Shown one piece after another: positions 8,570-19,269 of a stretch of 33,006 nt of DNA; the first letter of the stretch is position 1; each line of letters opens with the position of its first letter. The position numbers and the translations under genes are program-made. The stretch comes from Chitinophagaceae bacterium. GTDB lineage: Bacteria > Bacteroidota > Bacteroidia > Chitinophagales > Chitinophagaceae. A model generated the notes under the pieces. It did not search any database. It was not told the DNA's origin and saw only the letters and a list, made by a program, of their open reading frames with translations. The stretch covers positions 1 to 33,006 of the forward strand of contig JANYEP010000261.1 in assembly GCA_025363075.1 (NCBI GenBank). The letters run 5' to 3'.

Positions 8570-9667
8570 ATGTTTACAACATCTTATCAGGAAATATTGC
8601 AGCAAATTGATGCCATTAATCCCATTGAATATGGCAAAACAAGAAACCACATTAATGGTGCTGTAACAAAATTATCGCCATACATTTCTCGTGGGGTGAT
8701 TAGCACAAACCAAATAGTTGAAACAGTTTTAAACAAAGGATATAAGCCTTATGCTATTGACTCTTTTTTAAAAGAATTCGCTTGGAGAGATTATTTTCAA
8801 CAAGTATGGATAGCATTGGGCGATGAAATAAATGATGATATTAAACAGCTACAACCCAATGTTGACAATACTTTCATAGCAAAGTGTATTATAGATGCGA
8901 ATACTAACATTGAAGCAATAGACAAAGGAATTAATGATTTGTATGCAACTGGATATATGCACAATCATTTAAGAATGTATGTTGCTTCTGTCACTTGCAA
9001 TATTGCAAAGTCTCACTGGAAACTGCCTGCACAATGGATGTATTATTATTTATTAGATGCCGATTGGGCGAGCAATGCTTGCAGTTGGCAATGGGTGGCT
9101 GCAAGTTTTAGCAGTAAAAAGTATTACGCTAATCAAGAAAATATTAATAAATACTGCAACACAAATCAGCACAATACTTTTTTAGATGTTAGTTACGAAA
9201 GCTTTGAAACCCTTGCTATTCCTAAACCCTTGCAACATACAATATCATTAGAACTAAAAACAACACTTCCACAAAAGCAAGAAATAATAGTTGATAATAG
9301 AATCCCAACTTTCATTTATAATTTCTACAATCTTGATTGTTTATGGCATAATGATGAAGCTGGTAATAGGATATTATTACTTGAGCCAAGTCATTTTAAA
9401 CAGTATCCTGTATCTGCTAAAACCATTGATTTCATTATAGCTTTAGCAAATAATATCCCAAATATTCAAGTGTATATAGGTGAGTTTAATGAGCTTGTTA
9501 AAGAATATAATCTGACAAATATTCATTTTAAAGAACACCCAACTGCAAAGCATTACAAAGGAATTGAAGAAAGCCGAGATTGGATGTTTAAAGATGTTGT
9601 TGGCTATCATCCTTCCTTCTTTTCTTATTGGAAAAAGTGTGAGAGAATTTTAAAGAAACACTACTAA
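8570..9667 (+). CDS. Photolyase/cryptochrome FAD-binding-domain protein, apparently with domain order inverted
   Basis: N-terminal [66 protein letters not shown] are FAD-domain motifs beginning at ~aa 20 with no preceding antenna domain. The C-terminus carries an alpha/beta-like segment, [22 protein letters not shown]. Confidence 0.8.
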
Positions 9668-9698
9668 CTACACACACAAGCTGTTGTTAATTGCTGCA

Positions 9699-11189
9699 AT
9701 GAATAAAGAACAAATCAATATTGTTTGGCTTAAAAGAGACATCAGAACACAAGATCATTTGCCATTGCAAATGGCTGAAAATGCTGCATTGCCTTACCTC
9801 ATCATATTCTTATTTGAACCTTCAATCATTGCTCATTCAGATACTTCTTTAAGGCATTTACAGTTTCAATATCATTCATTAAAAAAGATGAATGGTCTCT
9901 TGCATCAATACAATAAAAAAGTAGAAATGTGCTATGCAGAAGCTAAGGAAGTTTTTGAATGTATTGCAGAACAGTATCAAATTAATAGCATATTCAGTTA
10001 TCAGGAAACAGGCGTCAACATTACGTTTGAAAGAGATAAACAAATGAAAAAATGGTTTGCTACAAACAATATTATATGGCAGGAATTTCAAAGAGATGGC
10101 ATTGTTAGAGGTAGTAAAAACAGAGATGGTTGGGATAAACAATGGTATGCAATAATGCACTCACCCATCATTAAAAATGAATATGAACAAGCCAATGAAA
10201 TCAACATCAATCATTCTTTCAATATTCCAGAAAATTTAGTTGGAGAACTTGAAGATTACGCTCCAAACTTCCAACCAGCTGGCGAAGATTATGCTTTCAA
10301 ATACCTTAAATCTTTTGTAAATGAAAGAGGCAAAAATTATAGTAAACATATCTCAAAGCCTTTAGAGAGTAGGGTTTCATGTGGTAGAATATCGCCTTAT
10401 TTGTCTTGGGGAAATATTAGTATTAAACAAGCTTATCAATTTGTATATGCAGTAAAAAGCAATAGCTCATACAAATTTGCTTTTCAAAATTTTCTTACAA
10501 GATTAAAATGGCATTGTCATTTTATGCAAAAATTTGAAGTTGAATGCAGCTACGAAACACAATGTATAAATGCTGGTTATGAATTATTAGAGCATAGCAA
10601 AAATCAACACTTTATTGATGCGTGGAAACAAGGCAAAACAGGTTATCCTTTAGTTGATGCTTGTATGCGTTGCTTGCAACAAACTGGCTGGATAAATTTT
10701 AGAATGAGGGCAATGCTGGTATCGTTTTTTTGTCATCATTTATATCAAGATTGGCGAGATGGTGTCTATCATTTAGCACAACTTTTTTTAGATTACGAAC
10801 CTGGTATTCATTACCCACAATTTCAAATGCAAGCTGGCACAACTGGTATCAATACCATTAGAATTTATAATCCTATTAAACAGTCTCAAGACCACGACCC
10901 ACAAGGATTATTTATTAAAAAATGGGTTACAGAATTGGCGAATATTCCAGAGCAATTTATTCACGAACCTTGGAAAATGACTGCTATTGAGCAAGCACTT
11001 TACAACACTTTTATTGGCAACGATTATCCAACACCAATTGTAGATTTAGAAACAAGTGGCAAAGCTGCAAGAACAAATATTTGGAGCCATAGAAACAATG
11101 AAGAAGTAAGAAAAGAGAACTATAGAATTTTGGCAACTCACACAAGAAAAAAGTTTTCAGCAAAAAGCAAAAAAAGTGAAACAGATTAA
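9699..11189 (+). CDS. Cryptochrome/deoxyribodipyrimidine photolyase family protein
   Basis: [19 protein letters not shown]-terminal photolyase motif; [46 protein letters not shown]-domain motifs. Confidence 0.92.
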
Positions 11190-11323: not shown

Positions 11324-12799
11324 ATGAAATCAGTAGCCATCATATTTCCTCATCAACTTTTTGAGAATATTGCAATGCTTGCAAAAGCAGACGCAGTATA
11401 TATTGTAGAGGAATGTTTATTTTTTAAACAATATAATTTTCACAAACAAAAACTTGTTTTTCATAGAGCTTCTATGAAGTTTTATGAATCGTATTTGCAA
11501 GAAAATAAGTTGCTCGTGAATTATATTGATTCCACAAATTCATTGGGTGATATTCGAAAATTAATACCACACTTGGCACAAAACGGTGTTACTCAAATTC
11601 ATTATTACGACACGACTGATAATTGGTTAGAGAAAAGAATCATTAGTAAGTCTAAAGAAAATAATGTTGAGTTGCACCAATATTCATCTTCATTATTCAT
11701 CAACACCAAAGAGGAAAATGAAGCATATTTTAAAGACAAGAAGAAATATTTTCAGGCAGATTTTTATACACATCAAAGAAAGAAATTAAATATTTTAATT
11801 GATGAAAATCAAAAGCCAATTGGTGGCAAATGGAGCTTTGATGCAGAGAACAGACTGAAATATCCAAAGGATAAAAAAGTACCTGCAATTGTATTTTCAA
11901 CGATTACAAATTTTTATGAAGAGGCAATACATTATGTGCAGCATAATTTCCCTAATAATTATGGAATAGCTTCTGCAAAATTTATATGTCCTACCAATTT
12001 TACTCAATCACAGCAATGGTCACAGCAATTTTTAACAACACGTTTTGCCGAATTTGGAGAATATGAAGATGCGATTGTTGATAACGAATTTGTGTTGCAT
12101 CATAGTGTATTAACACCAATGTTAAATGTTGGTTTAATAACACCACAACAAATAATCAATGAGACCTTAAACTATGCTGTCCAGCAAAATATTTCAATGA
12201 ACTCGACAGAAGGTTTCATTAGGCAAATTATCGGTTGGAGAGAATTTATTAGAGCGGTTTATGAACAAAAAGGAACACAAGAACGAACCACTAACTATTG
12301 GAAATTCACCAGAAAAATACCAGCATCTTTTTGGACAGGAACAACAGGAATAGAACCAGTTGATATTGTGATAAAAAAAGTTTTAGCAACAGGCTATTGT
12401 CATCATATAGAACGATTGATGGTGCTTGGTAACTTTATGTTACTATGCGAATTTGACCCTAATGAAGTATATAAATGGTTTATGGAAATGTTTATTGATG
12501 CCTACGATTGGGTGATGGTTACCAATGTGTATGGAATGAGTCAATTTGCAGATGGTGGTTTAATGGCAACCAAGCCATACATTAGTGGTAGCAACTATTT
12601 GATGAAAATGAGCAACTTTAAAAAAGGCAGCTGGCAAACAGTTTGGGATGGATTGTTTTGGCGATTTATGCACGTTCACCGAGATTTCTTTTTGTCAAAC
12701 CCAAGGTTAGGAATGTTGATTAATACGTTTGATAAGATGCCAGATGAAAAGAGAGAAAATCATTTGAAAGCTGCAAATGATTTTATTAATAAATTATAA
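11324..12799 (+). CDS. Cryptochrome/photolyase-related protein (FeS-BCP/PhrB-like family)
   Basis: IIFPHQLFENIAML, YIVEECLFFKQYNFHKQKLVFHRASMKFY, GFIRQIIGWREFIRAVY, GYCHHIERLMVLGNFMLLCEFDP, NVYGMSQFADGGLMATKPYISGSNYL. Confidence 0.92.
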   Translation: MKSVAIIFPHQLFENIAMLAKADAVYIVEECLFFKQYNFHKQKLVFHRASMKFYESYLQENKLLVNYIDSTNSLGDIRKLIPHLAQNGVTQIHYYDTTDNWLEKRIISKSKENNVELHQYSSSLFINTKEENEAYFKDKKKYFQADFYTHQRKKLNILIDENQKPIGGKWSFDAENRLKYPKDKKVPAIVFSTITNFYEEAIHYVQHNFPNNYGIASAKFICPTNFTQSQQWSQQFLTTRFAEFGEYEDAIVDNEFVLHHSVLTPMLNVGLITPQQIINETLNYAVQQNISMNSTEGFIRQIIGWREFIRAVYEQKGTQERTTNYWKFTRKIPASFWTGTTGIEPVDIVIKKVLATGYCHHIERLMVLGNFMLLCEFDPNEVYKWFMEMFIDAYDWVMVTNVYGMSQFADGGLMATKPYISGSNYLMKMSNFKKGSWQTVWDGLFWRFMHVHRDFFLSNPRLGMLINTFDKMPDEKRENHLKAANDFINKL

Positions 12800-15698: not shown

Positions 15699-16331
15699 AT
15701 GAAACCATACGAAAAACTTTTATCGCACAATAAGAACTGGGCAAAGGAAAAAGTAGAGAAAGACCCAAACTATTTTAGCAGGTTAGTTGACATTCAAACC
15801 CCCGATTTTTTGTACATTGGCTGTAGCGATAGTCGTGTGCCATCCAACGAAATTACTGGTACAGAACCTGGCGAATTGTTTGTGCATAGAAACGTTGCAA
15901 ACCTTGTTGTTCACAACGATTTAAATATGTTGAGCGTGCTGCAATATGCAGTTGAAGTGTTGAAGGTAAAACACGTTATTGTGTGTGGGCATTATGGTTG
16001 TGGAGGTATTAGAGCAGCAATGACAAAGCAGGATTTTGGTATCATTAACAAATGGTTGAGGAACATAAAAGATGTTTATCACATTCATAAAGCCGAGTTT
16101 GAAAACATACATTCTGAGGAAGAAAAAGTTAATAAACTTGTGGAGCTAAACATTCAAGAGCAAGTAATGAACCTTGCCAAAACTTCTATTATTCAAAAAG
16201 CTTGGAAAACCGATAACCGACCTGATTTACACGGTTGGGTATATGATTTGCACGATGGCATTATAAAACCATTGCTTGAAATTCCTGCAAAAACCAAGCT
16301 TGATGATTTGTATGAGTTTGATAATCTGTAG
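15699..16331 (+). CDS. Beta-class carbonic anhydrase
   Basis: [32 protein letters not shown] and [16 protein letters not shown] (Cys-Asp-His-Cys zinc/active site). Confidence 0.95.
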
Positions 16332-16419
16332 CCTGTGCAGTAAAAAATAATTTTGCAATCCAAAAATTCCCTAATTTAGTTTTTGTAATTAATTTTTTTA
16401 ACAACAAAAGCTATCTCTT

Positions 16420-16911
16420 ATGCCAATTCAAAACTTGGGTTTTAAACATCTTACTGCTGTCCAAAAAACAGCTATTGACAATGCCCTCAACACAATCGAA
16501 ACAACCATTCTTGCAGTAACCGAAAATCTATCGGATCCAGAAAGAAAACTTTTTGGAAGTGTAAACGAGCAAAACAAACTTTTGGTAAACAAGGGAAATG
16601 ATTACCACGTTAATCAACCCTCTCTGCAAAGTCCTGATGTTGACTGGACAGAATTTGATGCAGACTTTGCCGACAGGCAATTTGCTGATACTCGTTTAAA
16701 CAGAATTGAAAGTATTACCAAACTATTTAGTGATTTTAAAATTGTTCACGACTACGATAATTATCAAGATGTTTTAACTGATTACAAATATTCACAATAC
16801 AAAGCAGAAAGTAATACACCTGGTTTTGTAACTAAAGTAGCCGACTTAAAACAATTTTTCCCTCGCTCTGGAACAGGTGGAAGTGACACTCCTAACACGC
16901 CAAATGGATAA
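16420..16911 (+). CDS. Uncharacterised Bacteroidetes protein
   Basis: Complete ORF, MPIQNLGFKHLTAVQKTAIDNALNTIETTILAVTENLSDPERKLFGSVNEQNKLLVNK..; no recognised function. Confidence 0.75.
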   Translation: MPIQNLGFKHLTAVQKTAIDNALNTIETTILAVTENLSDPERKLFGSVNEQNKLLVNKGNDYHVNQPSLQSPDVDWTEFDADFADRQFADTRLNRIESITKLFSDFKIVHDYDNYQDVLTDYKYSQYKAESNTPGFVTKVADLKQFFPRSGTGGSDTPNTPNG

Positions 16912-17131
16912 ACATTTAGGCTAATTTGTCAAAATTTTAGGCAATAGTGTTAAACGTTTAGGTAGTATAGGTTAAAATTTTAGGTTGCTAACTTAAAGTT
17001 TTAGGTAATGAAGTTAAAATTTTAATTAAGTAACCTAAACGTTTAAGCCCACTAATTAAAATTTTATGTTATCAAGTTAAAGTTTTAACAAGTCAGCCTA
17101 AAACTTTAGATAATTAGCCTAAAATTTTGAT
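16908..17131. repeat. 11-unit array of palindromic cores AAANNTTT(A) at 21-bp period
   Basis: Cores start at 16910, 16931, 16952, 16974, 16995, 17016, 17037, 17058, 17079, 17100, 17121: spacing 21 bp with one 22-bp step. Core variants AAAATTTT, AAACGTTT, AAAGTTTT, AAAACTTT, AAACATTT. Confidence 0.93.
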
Positions 17132-17235
17132 GAAATGAATATCTACACAAGATTATTAACCGGTGCATAAAAAATATAGTACAGTATATTAAGCAGAACA
17201 AATCCACATTTATTTATAAAATTAAATTAAAAACT

Positions 17236-18768
17236 ATGAAGAAAATTATTATTCAAGTTATTGTGCTAACAATGACTCTATGGTTTACAGGCTGTAAAAA
17301 AGATGATGTTTCATTGAATCCAAATCAACTTGCCGAAAAACAAATTATTGAAAAGTACACAATAGTGCCTAAAGGTTTAAATCCTATTTTACAAAGAGTT
17401 GCAGACAAAATAAAACAAGATAATGATAAAACACATTTTCTTGACAAGCTTGGTAGACGTTCTGGAGTACCAATTTGGAATGCTTGTAAAATAACAGTAA
17501 AATCAAGAAGCAATGCTGCTGCAAGAGAAGAGAGTGATAACTGGACAGAGGTAATTATTCCCATATCACTACCCAATAGTCAAAAAGTAGATGGCTTTAT
17601 GGTTTGCTTTGTTAATGAAAACAATGTTGATATCATAAGAACCTATGAAGACCAGTTCTATGAAAACTATGGTTTTGGTAAGCCTGATGGAGAAGTTGAT
17701 GCAGAAGAAATTGCAAAGATGAGTATGGAGTTGGAAAGTGATGCTTTTGAACACAATAAGTTTCAAATCACAGATAATAGACTTTTTAAGCCATTTGATC
17801 CTAATGTAGTTTTAACAAAGCCAACACAAATAATTGTTATTAACAGTCCTCAAACTGCCCAGAAAGTAATTATAATAAAACATAGTCATTGTACTGGTCA
17901 TACAGGTACTGGTTCTGGTGGACACGAGGGTGGTGATTGTGATGAATGTTGGGATTGCGTGGACTATGAGTATTTATGTGTAAATAATTCGTGGGATGCT
18001 GGTGGAAATAATACTGGAAGTGGCAGCAGTAGTGGTGGCAGTAGTGGGGGTAGTAGCGGTAGCACTGGTTGGTCAAGTATACCTCCTGACGATACCCCAA
18101 ATGCAAATCCCGAACACCAAAAAGTCGATTTACAAAAAATGATGAACTGCTTCACTCAAATCCCTGATGCTGGGGCAACATATGAAATTAAGTTGTCGAT
18201 TGATATTCCAGTAAATGGACATCCCGAAACATTAATTAATTGGTCAAATGGTGGGGATGTAGGGCATAGCTTTATTACTTTAACGAAAACTGGTATTAGT
18301 GGTGTAAAATATTCACAGTCTTTTGGATTTTATCCCCAAAATGGCATAAAAAATATCTTGTCTTTAGGAACGCAGCCATGTCCTTCTTACATCGTAAATA
18401 ATGGAAATGGGGGTCATGAACACGAGGCTAATGCTACTTTAACTATGCCTAATGTAAGTTCTGCACAATTTCAAACAGCTATTGCAACCTCTTTAGCAAC
18501 TTGTACAAACCAATATAATATTACTAATTATAATTGTACTAGTTTTACTTTAGGGGTTATCAATTCTACCCTTCCATCTGCTAGCCAAATTGTATCACAA
18601 CCTATGACTTACAACTTACACACAACATATGGCCCACAAGCGGTGCAATTTACAGATAGTCCAGCTGGTTTGTATCAAACTTTACAAAATATGCAGAATG
18701 CTGGAAACGCTAATATTTCAACAAATATTTTAACGACAGCAACTACTAGTCACGGAGAATGTAATTAA
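17236..18768 (+). CDS. Lipoprotein with Cys-rich/Gly-Ser linker and putative papain/NlpC-like C-terminal domain
   Basis: Lipobox LWFTGC; conserved-looking N-terminal region (THFLDKLGRRSGVPIWNACKITV); CDECWDCVDYEYLC; (GS)n linker; C-terminal DVGHSFITLTKTG...SFGFYP ... EHEAN ... NYNCTSFTLGVIN. Confidence 0.65.
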   Translation: MKKIIIQVIVLTMTLWFTGCKKDDVSLNPNQLAEKQIIEKYTIVPKGLNPILQRVADKIKQDNDKTHFLDKLGRRSGVPIWNACKITVKSRSNAAAREESDNWTEVIIPISLPNSQKVDGFMVCFVNENNVDIIRTYEDQFYENYGFGKPDGEVDAEEIAKMSMELESDAFEHNKFQITDNRLFKPFDPNVVLTKPTQIIVINSPQTAQKVIIIKHSHCTGHTGTGSGGHEGGDCDECWDCVDYEYLCVNNSWDAGGNNTGSGSSSGGSSGGSSGSTGWSSIPPDDTPNANPEHQKVDLQKMMNCFTQIPDAGATYEIKLSIDIPVNGHPETLINWSNGGDVGHSFITLTKTGISGVKYSQSFGFYPQNGIKNILSLGTQPCPSYIVNNGNGGHEHEANATLTMPNVSSAQFQTAIATSLATCTNQYNITNYNCTSFTLGVINSTLPSASQIVSQPMTYNLHTTYGPQAVQFTDSPAGLYQTLQNMQNAGNANISTNILTTATTSHGECN

Positions 18769-18778
18769 AACAACTATT

Positions 18779-19180
18779 ATGATAACTAAATTTTTAAAGT
18801 TGGCAGTGATTATCTCTTTTTTGTTTATAACTGTGAATGGGCAAAAGTTTGATATGCCTATATGGCTTTTAATTTTTTTTGATATTATTGGACTTTTTTC
18901 TTCTGAAATATCCATTATACAAATCTTGGCTGTAATAGCTTTTTTGTCTTGTATCAATATATTTATTTCTATTTTTATGAGAGAGGAGTTTATAAATAAA
19001 CCATACTCACAAATCGGCTCTCTTGTTTTATTAATTCTATTCTCATCAACAGTTGTTCTTAAATCATCAAACAATGGAGTTTTTCTTCCTGTAACACTAA
19101 TTACTTATGGATTATTTCTGTTGTTATCAATTATCTGTTTAAATAGGATTTACAAATTACATAAATCAAAAAAAAAATAG
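18779..19180 (+). CDS. Small multi-TM membrane protein (candidate immunity partner)
   Basis: 133 aa with several hydrophobic segments (FLKLAVIISFLFITV, WLLIFFDIIGLF, IIQILAVIAFLSCINIFISIF, LPVTLITYGLFLLLSIICL); starts 10 nt after the preceding stop. Confidence 0.6.
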   Translation: MITKFLKLAVIISFLFITVNGQKFDMPIWLLIFFDIIGLFSSEISIIQILAVIAFLSCINIFISIFMREEFINKPYSQIGSLVLLILFSSTVVLKSSNNGVFLPVTLITYGLFLLLSIICLNRIYKLHKSKKK

Positions 19181-19209
19181 TACTCTACCGCAGGGGGTTC
19201 TATACACCA

Positions 19210-19241
19210 AAAAACGGCGTAGTATTTACTACGCCGTTTTT
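19210..19241. terminator. Bidirectional rho-independent terminator
   Basis: AAAAACGGCGTAGTA-TT-TACTACGCCGTTTTT, perfect inverted repeat between convergent genes. Confidence 0.9.
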
Positions 19242-19269
19242 ATTTGCTAATACACAATATTCTTTATTA

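Follow-up and report, generated by a model that had tools for sequence, protein, structure and literature searches.

Phased palindromic arrays linked to genes of a small all-helical protein family in Bacteroidota

The window, a stretch of 33,006 nucleotides from a Chitinophagaceae genome (GCA_025363075.1, contig JANYEP010000261.1), contains an array of eleven palindromic cores that begins within the end of a gene for a 163-aa protein. Arrays sharing its pitch and dyad symmetry are linked to homologs of this gene across Bacteroidota, co-vary with the encoded proteins, differ in motif between paralogs, and recur as solo arrays almost exclusively in gene-bearing genomes. We hold it to be somewhat probable that the window presents one copy of a module in which a small all-helical protein would cooperatively cover a cognate array of phased dyad sites. 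The open-access literature contained no report of the protein family or of its link to the arrays.

The array and its surroundings in the window

The array occupies positions 16910 to 17128, with no strand assigned, and consists of eleven AAANNTTT cores starting at 16910, 16931, 16952, 16974, 16995, 17016, 17037, 17058, 17079, 17100 and 17121. All cores claimed by the first-pass annotation were recovered, and their coordinates match its description of 21-bp steps with a single 22-bp step. It had also correctly placed the stop codon of the upstream gene inside unit 1 and given the flanks as TTTAGG in units 1-5 and CCTAAA in units 7, 10 and 11. Its contrast between variable spacers and conserved cores with flanks holds in part: the palindromic flanks are constrained, but only the 5-bp spacer center is free, showing no clear base preference among 86 units of related arrays. 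The window array is a degenerate form of ACSTAAANNTTTASGT followed by this 5-bp spacer. The longest chain of AAANNTTT at 20-22-bp spacing numbers 11 cores in the window, 2 in 200 Markov-1 simulations of the whole window and 3 in 5000 simulations with the composition of the array itself; chance models cannot account for the array.

The window array is neither isolated nor a decayed gene. A decayed 7-codon coding repeat, which had been suggested earlier, is excluded by the array periods: 20 of the 47 arrays linked to the gene repeat at 22, 43 or 44 bp, none of which is divisible by three. Many arrays also lie beyond a transcription terminator. The array is not a CRISPR, as had been recognized, given its 21-bp unit, its short spacers and the lack of a recurrent neighbor gene by the arrays.

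The gene for the 163-aa protein (16420..16911, + strand; pI 4.9) served as founder query of an unannotated Bacteroidota family, characterized by homolog searches and AlphaFold2. Its left neighbor encodes a β-carbonic anhydrase (15699..16331, + strand; Pfam PF00484, E 4.9e-55) and provided the synteny anchor for comparisons with genomes G001 and G002. Gene and array lie in a variable segment of ~2.9 kb (16332..19267, no strand assigned), together with a 510-aa predicted lipoprotein gene (17236..18768, + strand) and a 133-aa gene. This segment is considered variable because it is absent at the same place in G001, a genome of the same genus; there, no more than ~10 bp lie between the carbonic anhydrase gene and the end of the porin gene, the two genes that flank the segment. 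The predicted lipoprotein matched no curated family above cut-off, and neighbor clustering revealed it as no recurrent partner of the family. Elsewhere in the window, three adjacent genes (8570-9667, 9684-11189 and 11324-12799) resemble a cryptochrome/photolyase-type cluster by eye.

The protein family and its linkage to arrays

Matches to the window protein were found in 13 of 150 related genomes, its own genome counted. A draw of 396 Bacteroidota genomes included 31 with the family, at up to six copies each; the distribution of the family across the phylum is patchy. An 11-member alignment served for the family search, the full set of 30 homologs being too divergent. Apart from weak matches to unnamed phage families, no similarity was detected: Pfam and NCBIfam (30 members) and PADLOC gave no family match above cut-off, and a sequence search of the PDB gave none. 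The AlphaFold2 model of the window protein (mean pLDDT 88) contains one 55-residue helix at residues 76-130, and a second model from a distant clade (mean pLDDT 86) repeats the pattern, with five predicted helices including one of 55 residues. Fold searches with these models found nothing in the PDB, and viral structure models yielded no fold match to the family. The proteins are acidic, with a median pI of 5.1. Sequence and fold searches of the PDB, Pfam and NCBIfam detected no known DNA-binding domain in the family, and Pfam and NCBIfam no transposase or nuclease domain. A phage or plasmid origin was rejected, as phage and plasmid records and viral contigs held no homologs. One homolog with an CCAAATTTGAC array (L119) lies in a metagenome-assembled genome labeled Acidobacteria, reflecting either a binning error or a transfer. 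A divergent-looking homolog that the pairwise search missed (L217:2170-2643, genome G028) sits in a nadD neighborhood, which it shares with a solo array of the same genome (L091:9766-9990).

The first-pass annotation had called for a check of the association between arrays and homologs of the 16420-16911 protein, and the association proved strong. Of 65 named loci chosen by protein similarity alone, 46 have an array of 21/22-bp pitch no more than 700 bp from the gene. The sequence near the gene contains 49 arrays in 117.5 kb and the more distant sequence 11 in 476.9 kb, an 18-fold enrichment in density. Signals above threshold were recorded in 74% of 82 gene-centered windows compared to 3.9% of 283 distant ones (Mann-Whitney p 3e-32; the loci are mutually related, and p-values of the linkage tests are indicative), while control periods near the gene exceeded the threshold in 1.2% of windows. 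A phylum-wide draw, partly overlapping the first set, had arrays at 17 of 28 loci and none at control periods. About a quarter of the homologs have no array above threshold.

Arrays are located downstream of the gene in 40 of 62 loci, mostly less than ~100 bp from the stop codon, and upstream in the remaining 22; in 23 of the 40 downstream cases, a terminator-like hairpin stands between the two. Neighbor clustering found no widely recurrent neighbor gene in 82 loci. A conserved operon partner was dismissed, there being none among the loci compared, and so was a parS-like centromere with a ParA-type partner, for want of a recurrent neighbor gene. Copies in unrelated surroundings resemble each other in DNA sequence over the gene and the array but no further (for instance L099/L116, L146/L157 and L072/L073), and the pair therefore travels together. 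The cassette edges inspected display no obvious terminal inverted repeats, and a mobile element bounded by terminal repeats was discarded on this ground. Beyond the array, a small gene of ~117 aa (MKNKTIRRVATMNYGEIIGKQVALQ...) is found in L120, L143, L145, L148 and L153. In G141, arrays lie at contig ends (L215, L216 and L207), where assemblies break; array numbers and gene linkage are therefore underestimated in draft genomes.

Of the architectures proposed earlier, a polymerizing dimeric binder or an iteron- or centromere-like locus is strongly supported as far as association with the gene goes, but not as a centromere near the origin: in four single-contig genomes the genes lie at ~19-45% of the chromosome from dnaA, which lends no support to an ori-proximal centromere.

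Solo arrays, symmetry and clade-specific motifs

Genome-wide array counts came from searches by pattern and by sequence model. The model built on the array matched 6 of 8 close-homolog genomes versus 3 of 142 others (E up to 2e-4), and its association with the gene persists without the two training genomes (p 2.6e-5). Solo arrays occupy other intergenic places in the gene-bearing genomes G141, G113, G002, G073 and the window genome (G000), where they lie at C2:19032-19187 and in C264. The gene-free matches in G028 and G031 are probably due to chance, because they lie inside coding sequence and comprise two cores only. Solo arrays of the same motif are thus almost confined to gene-bearing genomes. 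The gene-free genomes G050, G119 and G131 have 21-bp arrays of other sequence, and two-turn arrays are therefore possible without the family protein; no common neighbor was found for these orphan arrays (L082-L090).

Several arrays have features of their own. Two orphan arrays of G131 (L083 and L084) reside inside a repeated, MITE-like element whose ends are conserved (translated CPPTTSFESLVNKHQRWLN and RMQRLFVSNKFI) while the inner array differs. Three arrays of G113 (L210, L211 and L220) have unit order and spacers in common and are bounded by inverted GAGGTGGT-CGTTT / AACGACCACCTC; the linked gene copy in this genome appears frameshifted.

Across arrays, pitch and symmetry are conserved and sequence is not. 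The observed periods are 21, 22, 42, 43 (21+22) and 44 bp, and 81% of 62 arrays have dyad symmetry above column-permuted controls (mean z 3.6). The AAANNTTT class has the consensus ACSTAAANNTTTASGT plus five free bases. Since the search key was the core only, the flanking AC..T / A..GT was unselected, and its consensus reads A.72 C.69 S T.83 / A.85 S G.59 T.66. Half-sites of AAANNTTT arrays pair at 0.45 across the core, 0.39 across the spacer and 0.44 at random within the array; they vary independently, with pairing not clearly above random, a pattern that favors half-sites in DNA over hairpins in RNA. Other clades use different cores, for instance ACCACGT/ACGTGGT without A-tracts in Flavobacterium aquatile, ACGTA types in F. 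saliperosum and ACGTATATTTTAGGGT in Aequorivita. High curvature had been anticipated for the window array, and its predicted value reaches the 99.9th percentile of the window. DNA bending may accordingly hold for A-tract arrays but is not the general function, as the cores of other clades lack A-tracts.

The array type follows the protein clade. The more alike two proteins are, the more alike their arrays (Mantel r 0.41, 0 of 2000 permutations). Among homologs sharing at least 50% identity with the window protein, 9 of 13 arrays contain AAANNTTT chains, against 5 of 47 among the other homologs (p 7e-5). The Mantel and co-occurrence tests do not wholly separate these relations from common descent of gene and array. 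The homologs with AAANNTTT chains come from Chitinophagaceae, Flavobacterium and Chryseobacterium, and the side of the gene on which the array lies differs among them; ACSTAAANNTTTASGT is common to close homologs in different families. Downstream of a partial second paralog in the window genome (C126) come four ACCTCAAATTTGACGT-type units, so that each of the two paralogs in this cell has a motif of its own. The arrays of four G030 paralogs differ in their units, and the more similar proteins (L079 and L080) have the more similar arrays.

Proposed module, alternative explanations and related systems

Physical binding, oligomerization and purpose are what we infer beyond these observations. The protein, probably a dimer or higher oligomer and perhaps acting with a partner, would recognize palindromic half-sites, each protein clade its own. 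With dyads at two-turn pitch (21-22 bp), a protein reading them would keep to a single face of the helix, along which it could spread; cooperative cover of the array in this way would form a nucleoprotein filament or cluster. Both the clade-specific motifs and the gene-dependent solo arrays fit this picture. Solo arrays elsewhere in the genome would offer the protein additional binding sites. The module may serve to structure or silence the chromosome locally, or to maintain itself. In a wider reading, which we advance tentatively, undescribed modules of this kind exist throughout the phylum, with a new-fold protein and orthogonal paralog specificities, and would supply the missing partner of bacterial satellites as a heterochromatin- or centromere-like device.

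The strongest rival, in our judgment unlikely, is a selfish or mobile repeat system of the REP/RAYT kind, in which the gene would spread or maintain the arrays and solo arrays would be non-autonomous copies. It would account for a compact gene-and-array cassette in unrelated flanks, solo arrays almost only where the gene is present, a patchy distribution with at most six gene copies per genome, and the common spacers and inverted GAGGTGGT-CGTTT / AACGACCACCTC bounds of the three G113 arrays. However, the protein has no transposase or nuclease domain in Pfam or NCBIfam, terminal inverted repeats are not obvious at the inspected cassette edges, the searched phages, plasmids and viral contigs gave no match, solo arrays are few per genome, and the unit pitch is constrained in a way that mobility alone does not demand. 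Membership in REP/RAYT itself was rejected, since Pfam and NCBIfam found no Y1 (HUH) tyrosine transposase in 30 members and the models are all-helical. Alternatively, the arrays could be tolerated 20-22-bp intergenic satellites, with the gene marking tolerant places and its protein inert towards the array. Noncoding repeats of 20-21 nt that keep their size while varying in sequence have been described with no partner (PMC8161180), and orphan 21-bp arrays do occur; the 18-fold local enrichment, the clade-specific motifs and the dependence of solo arrays on the gene nevertheless make this explanation distinctly improbable.

Transcription of the array as a chain of hairpins, a structured RNA that would bind the protein like the repeats of type III toxin-antitoxin systems, is very improbable. 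Dyad arrays are able to fold as hairpins, and ToxIN offers a precedent for a tandem-repeat RNA adjoining a small protein gene. Yet in AAANNTTT arrays spacer complementarity (0.39) is below that of random halves (0.44) and no compensatory change was seen, no Rfam match exceeded the gathering score, and the terminator-like hairpin parts gene from array in 23 of 40 downstream cases. Assignment to the type III toxin-antitoxin systems was likewise rejected, with no PADLOC or Pfam match above cut-off and no hairpin covariation. We give hardly any credence to an operator role, in which the multiple sites of the array would serve to autoregulate the gene or to control a neighbor: the upstream position of the array in 22 of 62 loci would suit this role, whereas the downstream position, often past a terminator, is the commoner one (40 of 62), and the neighbors are not conserved.

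We return to the module of protein and cognate array for comparison with known systems. REP/REPIN-RAYT systems combine palindromic repeats beside a gene with solo repeats mainly in gene-bearing genomes. The module is similar to this close system (PMC3116915, PMC3686654) in having palindromes by a gene and solo arrays mainly in gene-bearing genomes. In contrast, its protein lacks an HUH/Y1 transposase domain, and its sites form phased arrays rather than scattered single REPs. Plasmid Rep iterons, parC/ParR and parS/ParB have repeated sites at near-helical phase by the gene of the binder. The repeated sites of the module are also near helical phase and next to the gene of a presumed binder, but it has no replication initiator, ATPase or known DNA-binding domain; it is chromosomal, often multicopy, and shows no clustering around dnaA in those complete genomes that were compared.

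Two further systems share the two-turn scale. The BrickBuilt MITE minisatellite of Porphyromonas gingivalis is likewise a near two-turn intergenic tandem repeat in a Bacteroidota genome; its unit is 23 nt long and lies in a MITE with leader and tail, and the portions of the report cited here describe no protein gene within the element (PMC4596501). Bacterial noncoding satellites with a constant 20-22-nt unit and variable sequence were presented by Subirana and Messeguer as unexplained (PMC6749651, PMC8161180), and the likeness lies in tandem arrays of fixed two-turn size and variable sequence. In the cited portions of both papers no partner protein is named, while PMC8161180, which concerns Bacillus, proposes a hypothetical polymerizing protein for its satellites. 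The family arrays are noncoding, have a constant 20-22-nt unit and are unrelated in sequence to one another, and to these properties the Bacteroidota arrays add a linked gene family, dyad symmetry and clade-specific motifs. The family offers a first candidate protein partner, encoded in physical linkage, for constant-size, variable-sequence bacterial repeats in Bacteroidota. Its occurrence in cultured species of Flavobacterium, Chryseobacterium and Aequorivita makes the question directly testable, and if the pairs are orthogonal, they would provide a ready-made collection of protein-DNA recognition systems built on a new fold.
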